From positions 1 through 61,632 of the forward strand of contig ONCF01000071.1 of the NCBI GenBank assembly GCA_900316275.1: a DNA stretch of 61,632 nucleotides, in the 5' to 3' direction. The notes beneath the pieces were generated by a model. The model was not told the origin of the DNA. It made no database searches and saw only the letters and a program-made list of their open reading frames with translations. Positions within the stretch are counted from its first letter, which is position 1; each line of letters begins with the position of its first letter. Shown piece by piece: positions 7,661 to 61,632 of this stretch. This DNA comes from an uncultured Veillonellaceae bacterium (GTDB lineage: Bacteria; Bacillota; Negativicutes; Selenomonadales; Selenomonadaceae). The position numbers and the translations under genes are program-made.

Positions 7661-10600
7661 TTATTCTTGCGGCTGCTCAAACAGGCTCATTTCGGTAATT
7701 TGCTCCAGACGTTCCAGCGTCTCCGGATGCTTTTCGGCAAAGAAGGCGGTTTTGATTTGCCGCTCAGGCTCCAGCACTTTGCCCTGACCATGGGCCAGTT
7801 CGGCGAAGCGGCAGCTGTAGATGATGGGGAAGTATTTGCGGACGAAATTGCCATCCTCGTGCGCGGTGAGCGCGAGCACCTGGAACCCCAGCTGCTCCGC
7901 GATGAAGAATACCGGATCGAGCACGTGGTCACTCGAGGCCTTACCAAAGGGATTGTCGGCGACAACCACGCGATTGTTGGTCTTGCTGCGGGGCAGGCGC
8001 ACGCGTTTTTCGGAGAGATAGTTCAGGCAGCCGAGGAAGAGGGCCATGTTCTTGCACCAGGCCTCGCCACCGGACCATTTGTTGGACTCTTCCCAGTCGT
8101 AGGGACGCTCGGAGAAGGTGGCGGCACTCGTCGCCTTGCGGCATTTGACTTTGATGGCGTTCGTACCCAGCACTGCGTACAGCAGCTGCTGCGTGCTGAG
8201 TTTCTTTTGCAGTTCTTCCTTGATTTTACGGCTGTCCTCGCGTCCGTCCTCGTCGAGGAAGGCTTCGGTATCCAGCCGTTCGGTCAAGGTGCTGAGGTAA
8301 CTGCGGATGGCGGTGCGCCTTTCCGATTCGGGCTTTTCGACAAAATGAATGGTGTAGATATCCTTGCTTTGGCCCTGGGTGCGGATACGGGTTTTGGTGG
8401 CAATCTCTTTGAGGCCCTGGCCAATTTCCTGCAGGTAGAGGGACATGTGCTCGACCATATGTTCGATATGCTCGTAGTGGCCTTTGCGTTCCGCTTCGGC
8501 GATGGCGATGCTTTTCTGGATAGTGTTCAGCAGCGTCGCCCGCCAGGTTTCGTATTCGGCGTAGCTGTCCTTGGCCCGGATGCCATCGACAATCTGCCGC
8601 CGGCGTTTTTCCTCACGGATATGTTGCTCACAGTATTTGATGAAGGTATCGCGTGCCGCGTCGGTTTTTTCGCATTGTTGCTGGTAACGCGCAAAAATCT
8701 CTCCGGCAGTGCGCAGGAGCGGAGGATAGGCCTGCTGGAAGACCGCACTGTCCAGCGTCTGCCAGGCCTCAGGCAGCATGGCCGCCGTCACGCTGTCCAA
8801 CGTAAATTGCAACGTGACATTGTGCTGTCCCAGTTCGTTCAGGATACTTTCCACCTGTTTGAGCTGCCGATTGTTATCCTGCGTTTTCTGCTGGCAGGCC
8901 TGGAGAGATTTGCCCACACCCCGCAACTGGTCCTGAAAAAGCTGTTTCTGCGTGTCCGGGTCACCACTGATGTCCGGCAGGTCAGAATAGCGCTCGTCAT
9001 AGTGTTCACGGATGCTTTCGGCCCGCCCGGCGGCTTTGCTGTACCGCTCATGACTGCGAGTGTATGCCTGCTGTTTGGCTGCCTGGTCGGTGGCCAGCTC
9101 CTGGCGGGTGGCATGTATTTTCTCCTCCAGCAGCTGCCCGTCCGGCGGATAGGTCAGCGTCTCATCCAGGGTTAAAGCGCGCTCCCGAGCCTCTTTCTGC
9201 AGCTGGGCGATGTCTCTGGACAGCCGCTGCTGGTCTTTGCGGGTCTGCAGCAGCCGTTCCTCCAGACGACCGCGGTTTTGCTGGATACCGTCCAACCGGC
9301 TCTTGAGCTGACGCCGTTCATCGGCCAGCACCTCGTAACTGCGCGCATCCTCCAGCGGGGCCAGAGCCTGCACCTCGGCATAGTAGATATCATGGCGGAG
9401 CTGCTCGCGCTGCATGGCGATGGCACCGCTGTTCTGGGCCAGGTCCTGCATTTGCGCCGCCAGGGCTTCCACGCGGCGCTGCTCCTGCTGGCTGTGCTCC
9501 TGGGTCTGGCGCAGCTCAGTGCGCAGTGACTGTTGCTGGGCCAGGGCCTCACGATGCCGGGTCTGCAGCTGCTCATAGCGTGTGAGCTCCTGCAGCTGGT
9601 GCTCGAGCTCGTCCTGCAGCTTCTGCTGTGTGTAGTAGTCCCGTTGATAGTTCTCCACATAGCGCTGGCATTGCTCGATGCTCTGCTCGCTGTCCTGCAG
9701 GTTTTTCTGCAGGATTTCCGTACGGTTCGCAATCTGCTGCTGGCTGTTCTGCAGCTCCTGATATTCGGAAAAGGGACGCCGGGTGTAAAATTTCTTCAGC
9801 CGGGTGTGCGTCTGTGACAGCTGGTTGCAGAGCGTTTCCTGACGGGTGAGCTCGGCATCGCGTTGGCTGGCCTCGGCACGCTGGTCCGCCAGCCATTGCT
9901 GGAAGGTGTCCGCCTCCAGATGTTGCCAGTAGTCAGGCAGGACGGCCTGCGGCTGCTGGGGAGTCCCGCCATCGTTGAGGATGGTGCGCAGCTCACCGCT
10001 GCTCAGGACGAAGACCGGTGCGGTCAGGCGCGGGGCCTGTGTCCGCAGACGGCGCAGCAGCTCGGCGGTGCTGTCCTCGGAGGTGATGAGGGCCGCCGGC
10101 CAGAAGGCGTAGCGGCGCCACAGCTCCTGCGCGTCCTGACCAGCACGGCAGGCTGCCTGAAAGGCCTCGACACCGCTTTGCAGTACGCTGAAATCCTTTT
10201 GCCAGTCCTGTATGAGCTCCGGCAGCAGCGGGTCGGCGGTAAAGCTGGCGGCCTCGCCGTATACATCGACGAAGCGGTGCGCCTGACGGCAGGTAAAGGA
10301 GAGCCGTTTCCGCTTTTCGGTCTCTTTGATGAAACTGTCGCCCAGCTGATTGGACAAGAAATCTGCACGCTGGTACAGCTCCAGGGTATTGCTCACCATG
10401 TTGGCACAGGTGGGGAACTGCTGTAGCTCCTGCAGCAGCTCGCCCGCGGCGCTGTCGATGGCGCTGAGCTGGCCTGTCAGGTCCTGGGCATCGCGCTGCA
10501 GCTGCGCCAGCTGCTGGCGCTCGGCCGGGAGCTTGGCCTGCAGCGTCTGTTTTTGCTCCGTATAGAAGTCCAGATTTTTCTGGTCGTCAGCCAGCTGGGC

Positions 10601-51632: not shown

Positions 51633-52742
51633 TCACAGGGCACGCTCGAGGGCCTCGCGCATGACGCTGTTGCGGTTCTCCGTGATGTGGGAATAGACGC
51701 GCGAGGTAATCACAATGGAGCTGTGGCCGAGGCGCTTCGAGACGAGCTCGAGGTCCACGCCGGCCTCCAACAGCATAGTAGCATGGGTATGGCGCAGGGA
51801 ATGGAAGGACCCTGCGCCGAATTCCTGTCTGCAGAATTCGCCGAAGTAGCGTAGGCGGCTCGCGGTCATCTGCGCGCCGTTGTCATTCGTGCAGACGAGC
51901 CCGCTGGCGTGCCAGTACTTGCCATAGGCGAGACGCTGCTCCTTCTGCCAGTGCTGCTGCGCTTTGAGCTCGGCCGCGAGCTGGCTGCTGAAAGGGATAG
52001 CGCGGATGGAACTGCGCGTTTTGGGCATGGGCTGCAGCTCACCCGCACCGCCGTCATCGTACATGGTGGCGTGGATGGAGACCATGCCGGCCTCCATGTC
52101 CACGTCACTCAATGCCAGGGCGAGGCACTCACCGAGGCGCATGCCGGTATAGTACGCCAGCATGATGGGCATGTGGAACTTGTGGCCGCGGGGGAACTTC
52201 TGCCAGATGACCTCCAGCTGCTCGGGCGTGAAGACATGCGTCTCACGTTGCGCAACGCGGGCGGGCGGCAGGCGCAGCTGCGCGGCAGGGTTGCGCTGCA
52301 GGAAACGGCACGTCTCGTGCGCGTAGGCCAGCGAACGGCGCAGGACATTGCGGATGATCGCGAGCGTACTGCCGGCGAGCTGACGCTGGCTGCTGACAAA
52401 GTTCTGCAGGGCGCGCGGCGTGAGCCTGACGAGCGGCACCTCACCGAGTGCCGGCACGATATGATTGTTGATGGCGCTGTTGTACGCGCGGGCAGTCGCT
52501 GGGCGCAGCATGATGTCGACATACTCGCGGACCCAGAGCCCGAGGAACTGGCTGTAGGGCATCGTCTCGGGCTGCTCGTAATAGCCGTAGGGGTCGACAT
52601 TCTCAAAAAGGAACTTGTGGGCGGCCTTCGCCGCGTCGGCGCGGGTATCACCACCGACACGGGAGACCTTCACCTTGTTGCCGAATTCATCCGGCACAGT
52701 TACTATGAAATACCATTTGGCACCGCGTTTACGGAAATGCAT
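51633..52742 (-). CDS. int: tyrosine-type phage integrase
   Basis: A 369-residue site-specific recombinase. An arm-binding N-terminal part (FRKRGAKWYFIVTVPDEFGNK) is followed by the SAM-like core-binding domain (about 60-150, FLGLWVREYVDIMLRPATARAY) and the catalytic domain with Arg in YYTGMRLGE, HxxR in FHSLRHTHAT, His in KRLGHSS and the nucleophile Tyr in SRVYSHITE. All catalytic residues are present. AGGAGG lies directly against the ATG at 52751, so the start at 52742 (9-base spacing) is preferred. Its 3' end points to the candidate att site. Confidence 0.92.
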   Translation of the reverse strand: MHFRKRGAKWYFIVTVPDEFGNKVKVSRVGGDTRADAAKAAHKFLFENVDPYGYYEQPETMPYSQFLGLWVREYVDIMLRPATARAYNSAINNHIVPALGEVPLVRLTPRALQNFVSSQRQLAGSTLAIIRNVLRRSLAYAHETCRFLQRNPAAQLRLPPARVAQRETHVFTPEQLEVIWQKFPRGHKFHMPIMLAYYTGMRLGECLALALSDVDMEAGMVSIHATMYDDGGAGELQPMPKTRSSIRAIPFSSQLAAELKAQQHWQKEQRLAYGKYWHASGLVCTNDNGAQMTASRLRYFGEFCRQEFGAGSFHSLRHTHATMLLEAGVDLELVSKRLGHSSIVITSRVYSHITENRNSVMREALERAL

Positions 52743-52812
52743 GTTAATCATCCTCCTAGAAAAAAGGACGGGAACCGTACTGCAAATACCTGTAACATTC
52801 TCCGATTTGCTA

Positions 52813-52999: not shown

Positions 53000-53260
53000 A
53001 TGGAAAACGAAACTGATACGACAATGTACGAGGCGTATGTTGTGTTGCAACGCATTACGTGGCCGGGACGCGACGAACAAATGCTCGTCTGCGGCAAGGC
53101 TGTTGTCACACTTGACGAGGAGTGCAAATTCACCAGCCTGAAGTATACGCCCTCGTTAGCAAAGCAGGGGAAGACTGGCTACACGGTCATCATGACCAGT
53201 GACAAGGCTCTCAATGAGCGGGCGCACATCAACCTAAAAGTTCCGTCAGTAGAAACTTGA
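53000..53260 (+). CDS. hypothetical protein, 86 aa
   Basis: A small protein (MENETDTTMYEAYVVLQRIT...) with alternating hydrophobic beta-like segments and no known motif. GGAGG at 52990-52994 supports the ATG at 53000; the longer frame from 52916 lacks a site. Its last 32 bases overlap the end of the opposite gene. It lies in the phage element near the integrase, where regulatory or accessory proteins are common. Function is unknown. Confidence 0.6.
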   Translation: MENETDTTMYEAYVVLQRITWPGRDEQMLVCGKAVVTLDEECKFTSLKYTPSLAKQGKTGYTVIMTSDKALNERAHINLKVPSVET

Positions 53261-53462
53261 GCAGGAATATCTTCTCATCCCTGGGCAACGCGGCCAGCTG
53301 GTCACGTAGCGGCGGCAAAGTCTTACCATCGGCTTGGGCGACCAGCGATGCGAGTAACTCCTTTTGCTTGACACCACTATTGATGCTGTTTAACTGTGTC
53401 ACTATCTCGACACAGGCAGGGCTGTACTCAAAATCGGGCGGTACGGTAAAATTTGTATGCAT
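53229..53462 (-). CDS. hypothetical protein, 77 aa
   Basis: A small, mostly helical protein (MHTNFTVPPDFEYSPACVEI...) ending LPRDEKIFLLKFLLTELLG. AGAGGTG lies before the ATG at 53462. The longer frame from 53510 has no ribosome site. It converges with the 86-aa gene on the other strand. Family and function are not recognised. Confidence 0.55.
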   Translation of the reverse strand: MHTNFTVPPDFEYSPACVEIVTQLNSINSGVKQKELLASLVAQADGKTLPPLRDQLAALPRDEKIFLLKFLLTELLG

Positions 53463-53474
53463 AAAAATCACCTC

Positions 53475-53503
53475 TTGCAATCCCGCGCCTAACTGATATG
53501 ATA
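53475..53503 (+). promoter_or_regulatory. second copy of the repeated promoter element
   Basis: TTGCAA (53475-53480) and TATGAT (53497-53502), spacer 16. TAACTGATATGATA (53490-53503) differs at one position from the element at 52828-52841. It points into a stretch without a convincing gene. Confidence 0.5.
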
Positions 53504-53508
53504 GGAAC

Positions 53509-53655
53509 ACGGATAAGTCGGGGCTTGCCTATCTACCGAGAGCGGCGGCCCTATGCCAGTGCAGGGGCACTCCACAAACCTGTACAGCGGTCACGGCTAA
53601 TGTGATACCTCATTTTCTAGCAGCACCCATTGCGCATCCTTGGATGCTGCTTTTG
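53509..53655 (+). ncRNA. possible small RNA
   Basis: About 145 bases lie between a promoter-like element and a good terminator. Only a 15-codon frame is present (starting MPVQGHSTNLY, near 53552). The RNA would end against the 3' end of the oppositely oriented abi gene. Part of its start (CTTGCCTATCTACC) resembles the leader after promoter copy 1 (CTTGTCTATCCC). No family is recognised. Confidence 0.3.
53619..53655 (+). terminator. plus-strand terminator before the abi 3' end
   Basis: AGCAGCACCC pairs with GGATGCTGCT (one mismatch) followed by TTTTGTATTTT. On the minus strand there is no T-run after the hairpin. Confidence 0.65.
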
Positions 53656-53659
53656 TATT

Positions 53660-54607
53660 TTACAACATCGACAAAATGGTAGGTGATAGCCCCATACCGG
53701 TATCAATCTGTTTCAGGACTTCAAGTGGTACTATAGCAGCCATACGTCTATGAGCCTTACGGAACCTGTTCTTTAGTCTACGGAAATCGGCCGTGCCCAT
53801 AAAGTACCTCATGGCAATCAGCTTAGCAAGCATGTCTGACTTGCCAGCAATATAGTTACCTTGCTGGTTGCGAGGGATATCCAGCTGGGCGTGAATAGGG
53901 GTGTCTGGAATAAATTTACGAAAAAGTGGCTGGCTGTCAGATGTATACATGCGATTGCCATGTGCGCAGGCATTGCGGAAATCATTAAGGAAATAAATAA
54001 AACCGTCCATAGTGCTGGCAGGCATCTTGAAGTGATAAGCTACTGCCTGCTGTTCAGCCAGATACATACAGGAATAGAAATGTGCAATACGCCCAAAGGA
54101 AATCACACTGTTAAGGACCCAAAGGGGGACATACCCGTAGGCGCTCAAATAATGGCAGATAGCGGCATTGCCGGTCCTGCGGGACCGTATTATATCGCCT
54201 CTGAGTTTCGTAATCACAATATCAGCAAAGTGAATATTGTTCTGACTAGCGTGCTTGAAGCAATCCAGCGAAAGATACTGCCGGTGGTCGTAACCGTGCT
54301 GGGCCGAGAAGTGATAGGCAATAAGCGACTTCACATGCTTTTCTATACGCAGCAGTTCCGTGAGGAACAAGGAACGTATGGCCTGGTCGAACTCGTACAA
54401 AGCGTAAACCTGCTCGAAAGTCGTGTCGGGGATATAATGGTCTGGGCTGGTACTGGTAAGGAAATACTTCTTATAGCCGTTGATGATGTTGTAGTAATCA
54501 TCCTGTTGCATTTTGTGGGTAAAGAACCGCTCGTGCTCAATAACCAGGCCCCGCTGTTGCAAAATCCGGCACTGCTCTCTGTATGTCTTGAAAACTTTGT
54601 CTGTCAT
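53660..54607 (-). CDS. Abi_2/AbiF-family abortive infection protein (HEPN ribonuclease)
   Basis: A 315-residue protein of the Abi_2 (AbiD/AbiF) type. The N-terminal part has the family start TYREQCRILQQRGLVI and the YYNIINGYKKYF segment. A HEPN-type catalytic motif, R211-x4-H216 (FRNACAHGNRMY), follows the helix FIYFLNDF. A further R-x3-H (RIEKH) lies near 87-91. HEPN proteins of this type cut RNA and can stop phage growth by halting the cell. AGGAGGG precedes the ATG at 54607. Its codon use is more AT-rich than the flanks, fitting horizontal transfer. Confidence 0.87.
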   Translation of the reverse strand: MTDKVFKTYREQCRILQQRGLVIEHERFFTHKMQQDDYYNIINGYKKYFLTSTSPDHYIPDTTFEQVYALYEFDQAIRSLFLTELLRIEKHVKSLIAYHFSAQHGYDHRQYLSLDCFKHASQNNIHFADIVITKLRGDIIRSRRTGNAAICHYLSAYGYVPLWVLNSVISFGRIAHFYSCMYLAEQQAVAYHFKMPASTMDGFIYFLNDFRNACAHGNRMYTSDSQPLFRKFIPDTPIHAQLDIPRNQQGNYIAGKSDMLAKLIAMRYFMGTADFRRLKNRFRKAHRRMAAIVPLEVLKQIDTGMGLSPTILSML

Positions 54608-54617
54608 ATAACCCTCC

Positions 54618-54697
54618 TAAAACACGAATAGCCCTGGCATAATACCAGGGCTATCGCTGTCCAAGGTAGTGGCAAAACCACGCCGAGGATCTTTCCT
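54618..54697 (-). ncRNA. putative abiF-type antitoxin RNA upstream of the abi gene
   Basis: About 80 bases lie between a good minus-strand promoter and the abi ribosome site. They contain a small AGGA-AAGA-TCCT hairpin, a GTGG-TTTTG-CCAC hairpin, and a perfect 10-bp stem ATAGCCCTGG/CCAGGGCTAT (54628-54654) followed by TCGTGTTTT, which looks like a terminator. An 'abiF' RNA motif upstream of Abi_2 genes has been reported, and such RNAs have been proposed to restrain the HEPN protein. Assignment here is by position and structure only. Confidence 0.55.
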
Positions 54698-54703
54698 AAG
54701 ATT

Positions 54704-54732
54704 ATTTTAGCAGATAGCACTGGATTATGCAA
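54704..54732 (-). promoter_or_regulatory. promoter of the abi RNA and gene
   Basis: On the minus strand TTGCAT (54727-54732) and TAAAAT (54704-54709) with a 17-base spacer. The predicted start is near 54697. Confidence 0.65.
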
Positions 54733-54820: not shown

Positions 54821-54994
54821 TTATGCCTGCTTTGCGCCGGTAGTCGCGTAGGTAGACGAGCTTCCCTTTTCCTGAGCGTCGAGCTCGAGGTCGAGCTGGC
54901 GGTGAGCGGCGCAGGCGGCCTCGCGGGCAACTACCGAGCAATCCTTAATAGTTGGGGCAGTATTTCTTGCAGGCGCACGGGGATACGGTCCCAT
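54821..54994 (-). CDS. possible small or decayed ORF, 57 aa
   Basis: The frame starts at an ATG inside the 13-bp inverted repeat and reads MGPYPRAPARNTAPTIKDCS..., ending at TAA. No ribosome site precedes it. Near its 3' end a shifted frame gives the more protein-like end GKLVYLRDYRRKAGIK, so a frameshifted relic of a phage gene is possible. Weakly supported. Confidence 0.25.
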   Translation of the reverse strand: MGPYPRAPARNTAPTIKDCSVVAREAACAAHRQLDLELDAQEKGSSSTYATTGAKQA

Positions 54995-57900
54995 TTTGCA
55001 GACGTCAGCAAAATGGGACCTGTGAGACTGGCCAGACTGCGTATAAGGCGCTGCAGGACGGCATGGGCAAGGGCGGCCAAATTCTCGAGGTGCGCGACGA
55101 GAACGACCGCGTCACCTACAAGCGCACGACGGAAAACGCCGAGTGGTATCGTAACTTCTATGCGACGTTCCATCGCGCCCCGACGAAAGACGAGCTGACG
55201 CAGATGGCTATCGCGCTCACCACGGGCGACGCCTCCGCGCCGAAGGTCATGGGCTTCATCCCGCAGAGCGAGGAGGAGCAGCAGGCTATGGCCGACTCCA
55301 AGCGGGAAATCGACTACCTGCAGCAGGCACTCACCACGCTCGACAAAATCAAGCCGACCATGCAGAAGCTCAACGGCGTCGAAATGAAGCTCACGGAGGG
55401 CCTCTCCTCCGAGGCCTTCACCGTCTACCGCACGGTCAGCGACCAGCTGAAAGCCTTCGGCGGCCTGCCAGCCCGCGCGGCCCGCGTGAGCGCCATCCTC
55501 ACAGCCCGCCACGCCGACATCGTGGCCGGTATCATCAGCAAGAAAACGGGCAAAAAATATACCGCCCTCGACTACATGCGGGAGCGGTACGGGTTCGATG
55601 CGGAAGGGAAATATATCGGCGACAACGCACTACATCAGCCTGTTACCGAATTGGACTTGGAGTTAGATAAACAAATTCCAGTGCTTGACTTGGACACCAT
55701 GGATACGTCATTGCGCAATAAAGAACCCAAGGAGGTGATAGCGTACATAAAAGAAAAGTTGCCTAGAGACGCAATCCCTACGGCAGATTTTAAAGCCATG
55801 ATTGGAGCGCCGAACGATAGTTATGGTGCAACACATATAGTCAGGAATAAATCTGCAGCTGCAGAAGAAAATAGAATAGCCAGAAACGCTGCTTTGACTA
55901 ATATCGATGCTGTTATTAGGCATTCGTATCTTATCGAGGTCGTACCGAACGAAAAGATAGCTGTCGCCCAAGAAATGCCACGATGGAAGCGAAAAGCTCA
56001 ACGCAGGAAAAATAGCATTGATGAGTTTTACCGTTTAATTATTCCTGTCCGTATAGACGGTGAACAGAAAACGCTTATTATCGTAGCAGAAAATAAGCAC
56101 GGCAAAGTCAGCATTAACCAAAACGAAACTAACCTTTATGAAATTTACACAGCAAAAGAGGAGAACCATCCCGTTCGCCTATCGGAGCAAAACACTCCCG
56201 ATACTCGCGCTACTGAGGATGGCTCTCCATCTACCATTAGTATACGCGACACTTTACGCGGGGTCAAGGACTATTTGTTTCAGCCATACGTGGACGAGAA
56301 TGGCAACGCGAACTATGGCGTTTACTTGCAGAATGGCGTTATGTACCTGGGGCAGAACGCATCCCTCAATCAGCTGGCCTGGCACGGCTCGCCACATGTG
56401 TTCGACCACTTCGACCTCGGCGCTATCGGCACGGGCGAGGGGGCGCGCGTTCACGGCTGGGGACTTTATTTCGCAAAAAACCGCGAAATGTCCGAGAAAT
56501 ACCGCGCGATGCTTGCAGGAAAACCGGAAAGTGTAGCACTTAACGGAACGACATACCATTATCAGGGCAATAAGATTATCGGCCCAGATGGTAAGGCCGT
56601 TGATGACTTGCCGCTCATGCTGGCCATTAGCGAGTTACTGGAGTCTGGAAGCAAAGAAAAGACGCTCGACCGCGCTAAAGGGGCTGCCGCTTTGGCTTTT
56701 GACAAAGAGCAGAAGGAAACATGGCAGCGTGTACAGGAGATAATAGAAAACTCAGACGTTCGCTTTAAACAGGACGGCACCCTCCTGGAGGTTGACGTCC
56801 CCGAGAACGACGTACTGCTCGACGAGCAGAAACAGTTTGAAGACCAGCCAGAAAACGTAAAAGCAGCATTGTTGAGCCTTGGTATTGCCAATGCCACGGG
56901 CAGAAAAGGGCAGCAAATTTATGATGAGCTCAGCCGGAAACTGGGCAGCGACCGTGCAGCATCGCTTGCACTAAACGAGGCAGGTATAAAAGGCCTGCGC
57001 TATACCGATGACGTAGACGGCGAGTGCTTTGTCGTTTTCGACGACAAAGCCGTGTCTATCATCGACCGCTACAATCAGGCAGCAAACGCCAAGGCGGCCG
57101 TGCGCGGCACGACTACGGTCATGCAGGACGGGCGGCGCATTGTGTCGCTGACGCAGAACGCCGACGAGTCCACCTACATGCACGAGATGTCACACATCTT
57201 CCTTATGGACCTCGGCGACCTCGCACAGATTGACGAGACCAGTGCCAAGGAACTTGAAGTTGTCAACCAGTGGGCCGAGTGGCACCGTGGCGACGCGGCG
57301 CTCTACAAGGGCTCGCCGTGGGCGGCCGAGTTCCGTGCGCGCGAGGAGTCTATCATCGCAGCCGAGGATGCGGGCGACTTCGACGAGGCCGACCGGCTCA
57401 AGAACGTCTGGCGGCAGGAGCGCTTCGCCCGCGCTTTCGAGCAGTATCTGCGCGATGGTCAGGCACCGGCCCGCGGGCTGCGCGCCGTGTTCCGCAAGTT
57501 TAAGCAGTTCCTGCGGCAGATTTATCAGGCGGTCATCGCGGACGGCACCAAGGCCAGCGAGCCCGTGCGCCGTATCATGGACCGCATGATTGCCACCGAG
57601 GACGAAATCACCGAGATGGAGCTCGACGACCGCTACAAGGACATCAGCAAGGCGGGCGGCGAAAAGCTCTTTAACGAAAGCGAGCAGGACACCTATAAAC
57701 GCTGGCAGAAGGAGGCGGCCGAGGAAGCCAAGGAAAAGCTCATGAAAGAGCTCATGCAGGACCTCAACGCCAAGGTAGACGAGGAATTCAACGCGCGCGT
57801 GGCCAAGGAAGATGAGGACTACCGTCGCGAGCTCATGAACGAGCCTGTCTATCTCGCGATGCAGGCCGCCGTGGCCAGCGGCAGCGAGGAAGCCGTGCTC

Positions 57901-60900
57901 GGCTGGTTCCCATCCATCGAAGCTTACACCAAGGCAATAGAGGAGGCTCCAACCTTCGAGGATGCGCTCAAGGAACACATGGACGCCTACAAGGAAACGC
58001 TGGAGGCCGAGCTCATTCGCACGCACCTCTCCGAGGAGAATGTGACACACATCATGGAAAGCACGCTCTATCGTGCCAAGCTGGAGTCGCTCAAGGCCAC
58101 GGCCTTTGCCAAAAAGCAACGGCTCATCAACACCATTACCAGCAAGGCCGAGCGCGCGATGTCGTCCGTGGAGGAGAAAATCACGGCCCTGCCCGAGGAC
58201 ACCGACCTCAAAGTCGAACGCTTCGACAAGTCTGTGAAAGACGTCATGAAGGAAATCAACCGTCTGCGCTTCTCCACGCGCTGGAGCACGGCGGACATCG
58301 AACGCATCGAGGGCATGCTGCAGGCGGCCACCAAGGAAGAACTGGCCAAGAAAATGGCCGACTTCAAGCTGGCCGTGCAGAACGACAAGGCCAACGAGAA
58401 AGCCGTGGAGAAAGCCAACGAGGGCCGCATGCACGCCTATAAGGACATGGCGAAGAAATCCCTCGCTGGCAAGCCGTTGCATGAAGCCTGCGACTATAAC
58501 GGCTACATCCGCCAGGCCAAGAAGGCCGCCAAGCAGGTGCAGCAGATGGTCAAGGCCAAACGCTGGGACATGGCTATCCTTGCGCAGCAGCGCCAGGCTA
58601 TGGCTATGGCACTGGCCGAGGAGTCCCGCAAGCTGCGCCAGCACGTCGACAAGCTCACGGGGCAGGTTAAGCGCCAGCTGCAGGCCCGCACCGTGCGCCT
58701 GCCGAAGGACGAGCGCTACTGGCACCGCCACCTCGCCTACATGCTGCGCATCACGAGCACCGACGCACAGAAACCGGCAAGCGGCTGCGCGGGACTGGAT
58801 GCTTTGTTCAGCGACATGACGGCCTCGCTCGACATGCAGGAGGGCTTCTCCCCGACGGATATCCTCGAAATGGCCAACGAGCAGGGCGCAGACTTCAAGG
58901 GCTGGCAGTCCCTGACGATGAACCAGTTCGAGGACGCCGTCAATGCCATGAACATCCTGTACACCACCGGCAAGAACAAATTTAACATGGTCACCGTCGG
59001 CGGCAAGGCCATCGCCGACGTCGTCGACGAAATCATCCACGACGACAGCGAGGCCAGCCGCGTGGGCGTGCAGCGCCGCGTGGTAAACGAGGACATCGGC
59101 GGCCTCGGCTACAATGAGTGGCTGGCCAAACTGCCGGGCGGCGAGGCAGCCGCGCGCATGGGCGTCAAGGCGCTCTCGGCTATCACCAAGCCGGAGGAAA
59201 TCCTGCGCGCACTGGGAACCAAGGCACACAAGTACATCTATGGCATCTACGAGCGGGCCCGCGAGCAGGAGGGGAAGCGCATCGCCGACGAAATGGCCGC
59301 GCTGCAGAAAATCCTCGCGCCGTACTCGCACAAGGAACGCCAGGCATGGAAAGACCGCAATATCCAGCTTAGTGGCTACGAAGGGATGCTCTCAAAAGAG
59401 AATGTCATCTGTATGGCGCTCAACCTCGGCAACACTATCAACCGCCAGCGCCTTGCGGGCGGCTTCGAGATGCCAGAGCAGGACATCGTGGACTTTGTCG
59501 AAAAGCACATGACCACCAAAGACTGGCAGCTCGTGCAGGACATCTGGGACCATCTCAACACCTACTGGCAGGACACCGTGGCCGTAGAGGAAAAACTCAA
59601 CGGCATGGCGATCAAGAAAGTGGAGGCCGTGCCTTTTACCGTCAAGGCCAGCGACACAGGCGAGCAGATACGCCTCAAGGGCGGCTACTATCCCATTGCC
59701 TACAATCCTAAGAAATCCAGCAAGGCGGCCGAGAACGCCGAGAACGCACTGGCCCGCGGCAGCATGTCGGGCGCTATGGTACTCGGCACCAACCGCGGCT
59801 TTACGAAATCCCGTGCCGAGGTGGACATCGAGGGACGGCCCCTGCTGCTGGAATTCAGCGTCGTGCCGGACCATCTGCAGGCGGTCATCCACAATATCAC
59901 GTTCCGCCTCGCGGCCCGTGACGTCTACCGGCTCATCAACAACAAGGACTTCGAGGCGCACGTCGCCGACACGCTGGGCAGCGAATACCACGCTATCCTC
60001 AAGGAATGGGCCACTGACGTCTGGAACATCACCGGCAACAACAACGTGGCGGAAAACGTCATCGGCAAAGTCTTTAACTGGCTGCGGGCCAACTCCACGA
60101 TGTCCATTATGGGCTATCGCATCTGGCCGGTAGTGGAGAACATCTCCAACATCGCGCCGGTTATCGACAAGCTGGGTGCGGCGGAAACGGCCGCGGCGAT
60201 TGCGGACTTTTACGCGAATATCGGCGAGGCGCGGCACATGCTCACCAAGTCGGTATTCATGCAGAACCGCATCAACTCGCTCGACCGCGACATCCGGCAG
60301 CAGCCGGGGCTGTTCTCGGCCACGTACCGGCCTATTGAGATTATCCGCGACCATGCCTACGACCTCATGCTCTACTCGGACCTCATGCTCTCGGCCCCGC
60401 TCTGGCTGCGTTCCTACAAGAACGCCTTCGGCGACAAGCTCGCCGAGGTACGCAAGGAGAACGCCGCGCACATACAGGCCATCCGGGCGGCACAGGACAA
60501 AGTGGACAGCATCAAGGCACAGCTGCTGGACCTCGCCGAGGGCAAACTGCCCGAGCGGGCGGAACTCTCGCCCTTTGACGTCGTCAACATGACCGAGGCC
60601 GAGGGGATGGACTACCTCGACCGGCAGCAGAAGGACCTCGAAAAGGACCTTTTAAAAGCCGAGCAGGAATTCCAGCAGGCTACGGAACTCCCCATCTATA
60701 CTGACGCCGAAATCATCAGCGAGGCCGAACGGCGCGCCGTGTTCGCGGCGGACGGGGCCGTGCGTGACACGTTCGGCAGCGGCGCCACGATGGACCAGTC
60801 CTCCATCCAGCGCACGCGCAACGCAGCCATCAAGCTCATGACCACGTTCTACTCGTTCTTTAACACGCAGTTTAACGCCATCCTCGCGAGCTACCGGCAT

Positions 60901-61632
60901 GCGAAATTCAGCGAAGGCAGTTACATCACACGCTGGGCACTCTTTGCCCGTTCCATGATGCTGCGCCTCGTGCTCATGGCACTCATCGGCAGCACCATGA
61001 AATTCGCGTTTGGCCTGGAGGGCTCCGGCGACGACGACAAGTGGAAGAGAGAGAAGGGCTCCGACGGCAAGGAGACGAAAGTGGCCGTGCCATGGCAGGA
61101 GCGCTTCCTCAAGGTGTTCGGCAACAATGCTATGTCACAGACCTTCGGTGCGTTCCCGCTCGTACGCGACTTTGCCAACCTCATGGCGAGCTACCTGTTC
61201 AACGGCACCACCTACGGCAAGTCCAGCGCCGACTTTTTCAGCGTCGGCATGCGCGGCTTCACCGAGGGCTGGCGGGCAGTCACGATGCTGGCCAAGAAGA
61301 GCGAGCAGAACCTCGAGTTGCAGGAGCAGGAGGCGAAGCGCGAGCAGGCATGGCAGGAACGGCTCAAGAAGCTCAAGGGCAAGAAGCGTGCCGAGGCTAT
61401 CCGCAAGCACGAGGAGGAGGAGAAATACCGCCACCCGCAGAAGCCTATCACCTACAGCGACGTGGCCAAGCACGGCGCGCGGGCCCTTTCCTCACTCACG
61501 GCCGCGCGTGTGGGCATCACCAGCACGATGGCCGACGCCGTCACCACCACCATGCAGTACCTCAACGACAGCTCGGACCGCTACGACAAGACGTGGACCA
61601 ACATGGTGTGGTCCGTCATCTGGGACAAGAAC
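54952..61632 (+). CDS. giant phage polyvalent protein (partial; N-terminus uncertain, C-terminus beyond window)
   Basis: One frame stays open from the tandem stops TAA-TAG (54946-54951) to the last base: over 2220 codons. Counting from 54952, about 250-400 resembles LPD3 (IKEKLP, FYRLIIPVRIDGEQKTLIIV). About 475-710 is an ART-PolyVal ADP-ribosyltransferase (LAWHGSPHVFDHFDLG, GWGLYFAKN). Residues 744-748 are HEMSH of a zincin. Long charged helices follow. About 1980 to the end resembles LPD38, with a hydrophobic stretch (MLRLVLMALIGSTMKFAFGL). Such proteins are thought to be packed in virions and injected. The first ATG is at 55063; likely the true N-terminus was lost at the adjacent repeat. 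Confidence 0.8.
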   Translation, partial: MGQYFLQAHGDTVPFCRRQQNGTCETGQTAYKALQDGMGKGGQILEVRDENDRVTYKRTTENAEWYRNFYATFHRAPTKDELTQMAIALTTGDASAPKVMGFIPQSEEEQQAMADSKREIDYLQQALTTLDKIKPTMQKLNGVEMKLTEGLSSEAFTVYRTVSDQLKAFGGLPARAARVSAILTARHADIVAGIISKKTGKKYTALDYMRERYGFDAEGKYIGDNALHQPVTELDLELDKQIPVLDLDTMDTSLRNKEPKEVIAYIKEKLPRDAIPTADFKAMIGAPNDSYGATHIVRNKSAAAEENRIARNAALTNIDAVIRHSYLIEVVPNEKIAVAQEMPRWKRKAQRRKNSIDEFYRLIIPVRIDGEQKTLIIVAENKHGKVSINQNETNLYEIYTAKEENHPVRLSEQNTPDTRATEDGSPSTISIRDTLRGVKDYLFQPYVDENGNANYGVYLQNGVMYLGQNASLNQLAWHGSPHVFDHFDLGAIGTGEGARVHGWGLYFAKNREMSEKYRAMLAGKPESVALNGTTYHYQGNKIIGPDGKAVDDLPLMLAISELLESGSKEKTLDRAKGAAALAFDKEQKETWQRVQEIIENSDVRFKQDGTLLEVDVPENDVLLDEQKQFEDQPENVKAALLSLGIANATGRKGQQIYDELSRKLGSDRAASLALNEAGIKGLRYTDDVDGECFVVFDDKAVSIIDRYNQAANAKAAVRGTTTVMQDGRRIVSLTQNADESTYMHEMSHIFLMDLGDLAQIDETSAKELEVVNQWAEWHRGDAALYKGSPWAAEFRAREESIIAAEDAGDFDEADRLKNVWRQERFARAFEQYLRDGQAPARGLRAVFRKFKQFLRQIYQAVIADGTKASEPVRRIMDRMIATEDEITEMELDDRYKDISKAGGEKLFNESEQDTYKRWQKEAAEEAKEKLMKELMQDLNAKVDEEFNARVAKEDEDYRRELMNEPVYLAMQAAVASGSEEAVLGWFPSIEAYTKAIEEAPTFEDALKEHMDAYKETLEAELIRTHLSEENVTHIMESTLYRAKLESLKATAFAKKQRLINTITSKAERAMSSVEEKITALPEDTDLKVERFDKSVKDVMKEINRLRFSTRWSTADIERIEGMLQAATKEELAKKMADFKLAVQNDKANEKAVEKANEGRMHAYKDMAKKSLAGKPLHEACDYNGYIRQAKKAAKQVQQMVKAKRWDMAILAQQRQAMAMALAEESRKLRQHVDKLTGQVKRQLQARTVRLPKDERYWHRHLAYMLRITSTDAQKPASGCAGLDALFSDMTASLDMQEGFSPTDILEMANEQGADFKGWQSLTMNQFEDAVNAMNILYTTGKNKFNMVTVGGKAIADVVDEIIHDDSEASRVGVQRRVVNEDIGGLGYNEWLAKLPGGEAAARMGVKALSAITKPEEILRALGTKAHKYIYGIYERAREQEGKRIADEMAALQKILAPYSHKERQAWKDRNIQLSGYEGMLSKENVICMALNLGNTINRQRLAGGFEMPEQDIVDFVEKHMTTKDWQLVQDIWDHLNTYWQDTVAVEEKLNGMAIKKVEAVPFTVKASDTGEQIRLKGGYYPIAYNPKKSSKAAENAENALARGSMSGAMVLGTNRGFTKSRAEVDIEGRPLLLEFSVVPDHLQAVIHNITFRLAARDVYRLINNKDFEAHVADTLGSEYHAILKEWATDVWNITGNNNVAENVIGKVFNWLRANSTMSIMGYRIWPVVENISNIAPVIDKLGAAETAAAIADFYANIGEARHMLTKSVFMQNRINSLDRDIRQQPGLFSATYRPIEIIRDHAYDLMLYSDLMLSAPLWLRSYKNAFGDKLAEVRKENAAHIQAIRAAQDKVDSIKAQLLDLAEGKLPERAELSPFDVVNMTEAEGMDYLDRQQKDLEKDLLKAEQEFQQATELPIYTDAEIISEAERRAVFAADGAVRDTFGSGATMDQSSIQRTRNAAIKLMTTFYSFFNTQFNAILASYRHAKFSEGSYITRWALFARSMMLRLVLMALIGSTMKFAFGLEGSGDDDKWKREKGSDGKETKVAVPWQERFLKVFGNNAMSQTFGAFPLVRDFANLMASYLFNGTTYGKSSADFFSVGMRGFTEGWRAVTMLAKKSEQNLELQEQEAKREQAWQERLKKLKGKKRAEAIRKHEEEEKYRHPQKPITYSDVAKHGARALSSLTAARVGITSTMADAVTTTMQYLNDSSDRYDKTWTNMVWSVIWDKN
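54987..55020. repeat. perfect 13-bp inverted repeat at the 5' edge of the polyvalent gene
   Basis: GGTCCCATTTTGC (54987-54999) and GCAAAATGGGACC (55008-55020) flank AGACGTCA, which contains GACGTC. There is no T-run beside the arms. It marks the place where the polyvalent frame becomes convincingly coding, so it may be a recombination scar or a phage binding site. Confidence 0.6.

Follow-up and report, generated by a model that had tools for sequence, protein, structure and literature searches.

A predicted AbiF-family toxin unit with a covarying leader RNA on a mobile element of a rumen Selenomonadales-type bacterium

The window, i.e. the whole stretch of 61,632 nucleotides that was analysed, carries on its minus strand a gene for an Abi_2 protein preceded by a short structured leader (Table 1), within a mobile element whose host is a rumen Selenomonadales-type bacterium. 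The protein matches Pfam PF07751 (Abi_2) at 141.4 bits against a cutoff of 25.6 (E 5.4e-41) and the PADLOC AbiD model (E 8.9e-47), and is homologous over residues 8-237 to PDB 8VZ6 (PbAbiF; E 5e-15), with the HEPN pair inside the alignment. This motif, R211-NACA-H216 (arginine codon at 53977-53975), aligns with RNSCCH of 8VZ6 in the place of PbAbiF R210/H215, and RN-x3-H is present in the Abi_2 homologues collected. The AGGAGGG site and the Abi_2 gene with an R-x4-H HEPN motif, described in an earlier note made from the sequence alone, were all found, and the protein is predicted to be an RNA-cutting phage-defence toxin of the AbiF kind. A predicted fold (pLDDT 40.6, from too shallow an alignment) was left unused.

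Two genes downstream of Abi_2 is the gene for a tyrosine integrase, and the small neighbouring ORF, which gave no match in protein-family searches, is taken as a cargo neighbour. On the other side a frame of more than 2,200 codons (54952-61632, plus strand), with a weak match to LPD3 (large polyvalent protein), stays open to the contig end. The integrase on one side and this long frame on the other suggest that the unit is close to one border of an integrative element, which extends beyond the contig end. Where the 5' end of the long frame seems to be missing there is a perfect 13-bp inverted repeat, GGTCCCATTTTGC-8-GCAAAATGGGACC (54987-55020), which suggests either an insertion scar or an assembly junction. 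The window also holds a T-box leader (RF00230, 95.9 bits) at 517-746 on the plus strand.

Table 1. Features of the Abi_2 locus in the window, and W and B class RNAs at other loci that have no intact Abi_2 gene.
Feature	Position	Strand	Description or basis
Tyrosine integrase of mobile element	51633..52751	-	Pfam Phage_integrase 6e-24, Phage_int_SAM_3; PHROG integrase 1e-66
Small ORF, cargo neighbour	53229..53510	-	93 aa (fewer if an internal ATG is the start); unmatched in family searches
Abi_2 / AbiD-F HEPN protein gene, predicted toxin	53660..54607	-	315 aa; Pfam, PADLOC and PDB matches
Ribosome-binding site AGGAGGG	54612..54618	-	Sequence
Predicted small RNA of ~79 nt, class W AbiF-associated RNA	54619..54697	-	R1 model, conservation, folding z
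Intrinsic-terminator-like hairpin	54624..54657	-	13-bp stem, one bulged U, then GUUUU
Candidate antitoxin-type hairpin	54660..54689	-	P1 UCC/GGA (+GG/CC), P2 GUGGU/GCCAC, 3' bulge UACC
Promoter-like site TTGCAT-N17-TAAAAT	54704..54732	-	Sequence; spacing kept at other W and B loci
Class W RNA without intact Abi_2	L102 3807-3891		No Abi_2 remnant
Class W RNA without intact Abi_2	L103 2628-2544	-	28-codon ORF of unproven origin
Class W RNA without intact Abi_2	L104 1323-1408		No Abi_2 remnant
Class W RNA without intact Abi_2	L021 9461-9546		Start and C-terminal remnant, ~9559-9640, weak match E 0.017
Class W RNA without intact Abi_2	L105 4438-4518		Gene cut at residue ~54
Class B RNA without intact Abi_2	L106 468-539		Remnant frame 559-741
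Class B RNAs without intact Abi_2	L141, L142, L143, L144, L145, L146		

Upstream of the leader are the promoter-like boxes proposed earlier, TTGCAT (54732-54727) and, 17 nt on, TAAAAT (54709-54704, minus strand). The -35 box is weak (3/6 to consensus) and a simple consensus promoter scan of the window did not call the site, but the promoter is nonetheless supported by recurrence of the boxes upstream of GATCC at other loci of the window's RNA class (W) and its sister class (B): in those examined the -10 box lies 9-13 nt 5' of GATCC, and nearly all have a TTG-type -35 at 17-18 nt. As judged from sequence features only, the order at the locus, RNA with promoter, terminator and toxin gene, is type III-like. 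The leader has a folding energy of -42.0 kcal/mol compared with -25.7 kcal/mol for dinucleotide shuffles (z -4.97, 0 of 200 shuffles). Short inverted repeats are common, which like the negative promoter scan would agree with chance hairpins upstream of an ordinary gene, but this view, against which the folding z and the covariation described below also argue, is already refuted by conservation and its likelihood is negligible.

The conserved class W RNA reads GAUCC-UYGGC-[P2]-UACC-UUGGAC, then the terminator stem. The window element is a single hairpin, GAUCC..GUGG[loop]CCAC-UACC-UUGGAC, upstream of the 13-bp terminator stem, and the same leader is carried by closely related genes (65-67% identity). 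R1, a covariance model built from five leader sequences, added three members and gave a single match in the window (90.7 bits at 54699-54618; no repeat array). In the resulting eight-member alignment the RNA is kept at seven loci besides the window, with the same P1/P2 fold throughout and 99.5% of cells paired. Both sides have changed in seven pairs (16 cells), a number of cells reached in 0 of 500 shuffles and far above that in slid controls; two of these pairs are in P2 and five in the terminator stem (5/13), of which every cell is paired. The check for covariation proposed earlier for the upstream regions of homologous Abi_2 genes is thus positive, with compensatory changes in both hairpins. 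P1, which contains two pyrimidine mismatches in W, is invariant within the class, so here the helix relies on thermodynamics and on class B. The P1/P2 hairpin is more tightly conserved than the terminator. Three hairpins had been described in the leader, the last a perfect 10-bp stem; P1/P2 and the terminator are conserved but the first hairpin, AGGAAAGATCCT, is not, and the terminator stem is in fact 13 bp with one bulged U.

A DNA similarity search of named phage and plasmid collections found no class W RNA, and R1 run across 398 genomes of the phylum found, outside the family, weak terminator-like matches only. A viral-contig scan with a 16-nt core returned 15 matches, among which L021 alone is a true member. 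Elsewhere, class W members neighbour parA/parB or conjugation-like genes, named by eye from sequence (L102, L108), or chromosomal genes (L107, L105), and those at L021 and L103 are in prophage-like surroundings. The tyrosine integrases found a short way downstream at L104, L021 and L106 as well as in the window would fit a conserved DNA element, either a recombination site or an insertion hot spot near integrases, instead of an RNA. However, these integrases share just 26-34% identity, too low for them to have one core site in common, the stretch is also found away from integrases by chromosomal (L107) or parAB (L102) genes, and there are compensatory pair changes in both hairpins and a conserved promoter spacing, so that a DNA element is highly improbable.

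A search of the leader with the Rfam abiF covariance model had been proposed earlier; RF03085 found nothing in the window at either the gathering (37 bits) or relaxed thresholds, and its best score over the whole genome (15.2 bits) fell elsewhere than the window RNA. The same search recovered the positive control, the leader of C. difficile phage phiC2, at 37.6 bits. When compared with the RF03085 structure line, which has a 6-bp P1, the window RNA follows the abiF layout of P1, short 5' loop, P2, longer 3' bulge with nACC, and P1', upstream of Abi_2. Class B, found on Abi_2 proteins that are ~40% identical, has the full 6-bp P1 and a 3' UACC/UACA as in W, with seven pairs changed on both sides including three of the six in P1. 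A class B model built without W gives 28.5 bits for the window RNA and 37.4 bits for L104, which is itself intermediate, with a class B-like 6-bp P1 and a W-type P2. This recovery, the intermediate and the shared layout lead us to read W and B as diverged members of the AbiF-RNA kind, outside RF03085 as Rfam defines it. The suggestion that the RNA may be a new variant holds insofar as Rfam 15 does not find it, but the system itself is already published; the subclass, absent from Rfam 15, may be covered by the covariance models that Zilberzwige-Tal et al. built for AbiF RNAs, which a later paper has used (PMC12804078). A sub-threshold match in the window to rli61 (RF01485; 24 bits, E 0.041, gathering 50), with similarity mainly in the terminator stem, was taken as chance, and a literature search on it found nothing.

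Leaders and proteins diverge together. Sorting of the leaders by eye, done before the Abi_2 tree was built, gave seven RNA classes, each of which forms one group on that tree (0 of 200 shuffles). Leader and protein similarity are correlated (Mantel r 0.73, a value reached in 0 of 2000 permutations), mainly through near and middle relatives, as the lower rank correlation of 0.26 indicates. A short leader with a terminator-like hairpin precedes ~40 of the 44 Abi_2 genes collected (by inspection, with no control set), and the order promoter, short RNA, terminator, gene recurs in almost all Abi_2 leaders seen. The earlier claim of an AbiF protein with a structured upstream RNA is thus upheld by the covariation and by an RNA class that follows the protein clade. 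These data also bear on whether the leader is a cis-acting transcription attenuator only, its terminator limiting read-through into a toxic gene with no action in trans. This would suit the strong 13-bp terminator directly 5' of the RBS, and the terminator in RCd22 does lower abiF expression (PMC12373285). But RCd22 works in trans (PMC12373285), and at the loci studied here the P1/P2 hairpin is under tighter conservation than the terminator, with compensatory changes of its own, the RNA sequence tracks the protein clade, and the RNA persists where there is no toxin gene to attenuate. An attenuator alone is therefore unlikely.

A further conserved Abi_2 leader class (L009, L010, L046, L047, L050 and L055), GUGCUG..CUCUACGGGG..CAGUGC plus a terminator, ranges from Streptococcus satellite phages to this class of bacteria and had no Rfam match in the leaders scanned. 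At L009 1151-1231 there is also a Rfam DUF3800-VII RNA (53.5 bits), near an Abi_2 gene that has its own leader RNA.

No intact Abi_2 gene follows the RNA at 12 of the 21 W and B loci, while promoter and fold are mostly kept; several loci are near-copies in sister species, so these are not 12 independent events. Class W has an intact gene at three of eight loci (window, G016 and G293), and class B at six of 13, with none at the other seven. Internal or N-terminal deletions at L106, L021 and L141 have removed the HEPN motif and left a short frame with a C-terminal remnant, in L106 a fusion of 19 N-terminal and ~34 C-terminal residues, in L141 a C-terminal Abi_2 piece just after the class B RNA. 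At L142 (3271-1560, minus strand) a small defence island contains a class B RNA that lacks an Abi_2 of its own, with a SIR2_2-domain gene directly after it and an Abi_2 from a different class before it. In four of the five toxin-less W RNAs all pairs are kept despite 4 to 10 changes at paired positions, pair breaks being fewer than under random placement (P 0.0003 to 0.03); L104 is not significant. These changes may predate toxin loss, and ordinary decay, toxin first, explains the survival of the RNA without any function. Retention as counter-defence is possible, with precedents in a cyanophage with an RF03085 RNA (PMC9964418) and in orphan antitoxins that phages carry against other systems (cited in PMC12548467). 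That the stand-alone W and B RNAs are working solitary antitoxins, which mobile elements and chromosomes retain once the toxin is gone so as to disarm the AbiF units of their host or of further elements (counter-defence, or anti-addiction, by RNA), is a tentative idea that we rate as somewhat doubtful. Frequent RNA survival without the toxin does offer a simple test for RNA antitoxins as counter-defence.

The gene and its motif, the covarying two-hairpin RNA, its leader position, the RNA class by clade and the mobile context are observed in the sequence. We read the window unit as a type III-like, AbiF-family toxin-antitoxin/abortive-infection unit on an integrative element, with a probability of about 0.78. 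In the mechanism we propose, a sigma-70-type promoter would drive a short RNA, and as most transcripts would end at its own terminator the RNA would exceed the toxin mRNA. The P1-P2 hairpin, in which the nACC bulge is single-stranded, would bind the Abi_2 HEPN homodimer and block the RNase site R211/H216. Should the RNA supply fail or be outrun, for example under a phage that shuts off host transcripts or destroys them, the protein would be freed to cut RNA, and growth would stop before the phage matures. Since the window unit has the parts of RCd22 and PbAbiF in the same order, the same mechanism is the best inference; by this analogy we infer RNA-protein binding, toxicity, neutralisation and terminator read-through, whereas a phage trigger is a supposition that goes further. 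Against the toxin-antitoxin reading stand the failure of RF03085 to recognise the window RNA, the invariance of P1 in class W, and an RNA in single copy, unlike the two motifs of RCd22 and the repeats that make up classic type III antitoxins. With most W and B loci lacking an intact toxin, their RNAs may also do something more.

Cas13 is held to descend from AbiF (PMC12737573), which raises the alternative that the RNA serves the HEPN nuclease as a target guide, in the way that a crRNA serves Cas13. Such a role is very hard to credit, as there is no variable spacer-like part, the body being near-invariant across loci bar loops and paired changes, the arm that does vary belongs to the terminator stem, and the model matches once, with no repeat array. 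The toxin-antitoxin reading adds to a toxin family held ancestral to Cas13 two covariation-supported RNA classes missed by the Rfam model, and RNA and protein are shown to diverge together in the AbiF family.

Like RF03085 abiF RNAs, the window RNA lies upstream of Abi_2 with the same helix order and 3' bulge. It differs in giving no match to RF03085 at any usable score and in its separate terminator, P1 itself being the terminator stem in several abiF-class leaders. With ToxIN-type (type III) systems it shares an RNA antitoxin gene, terminator and toxin gene on one transcript, but their toxin has the ToxN fold, not HEPN, and their antitoxins are tandem repeats whereas the window RNA is single copy. 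AbiFCd/RCd22 of C. difficile phage phi027 likewise pairs an Abi_2 HEPN protein with RNxCAH (PMC12373285) with a small upstream RNA that has its own promoter and terminator and a hairpin of P1, short loop, P2, 3' bulge and P1'; the window protein is ~29% identical to the phiC2 homologue over 218 residues. RCd22 contains two abiF motifs, with the terminator apart from them, where the window has one hairpin and terminator, and unlike those motifs the window RNA is unrecognised by RF03085. Transcribed from a SigA promoter, with most transcripts stopping at the terminator before abiF, RCd22 binds AbiFCd directly and neutralises it in cis and in trans, its stems being needed, though its authors could not show phage triggering of AbiFCd (PMC12373285). 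PbAbiF/AbiFr (8VZ6; Zilberzwige-Tal et al., via PMC12737573 and PMC12373285) is a Prevotellaceae system, unlike the window unit, but protein alignment (residues 8-237, with the R/H pair) and published descriptions set a likeness that extends to one RNA unit per protein; each PbAbiF monomer binds a single AbiFr RNA, and the nuclease is said to be inhibited by bases of a single-stranded bulge (PMC12737573). The window unit probably belongs to this already published AbiF-RNA system, the characterisation of which dates from 2025.
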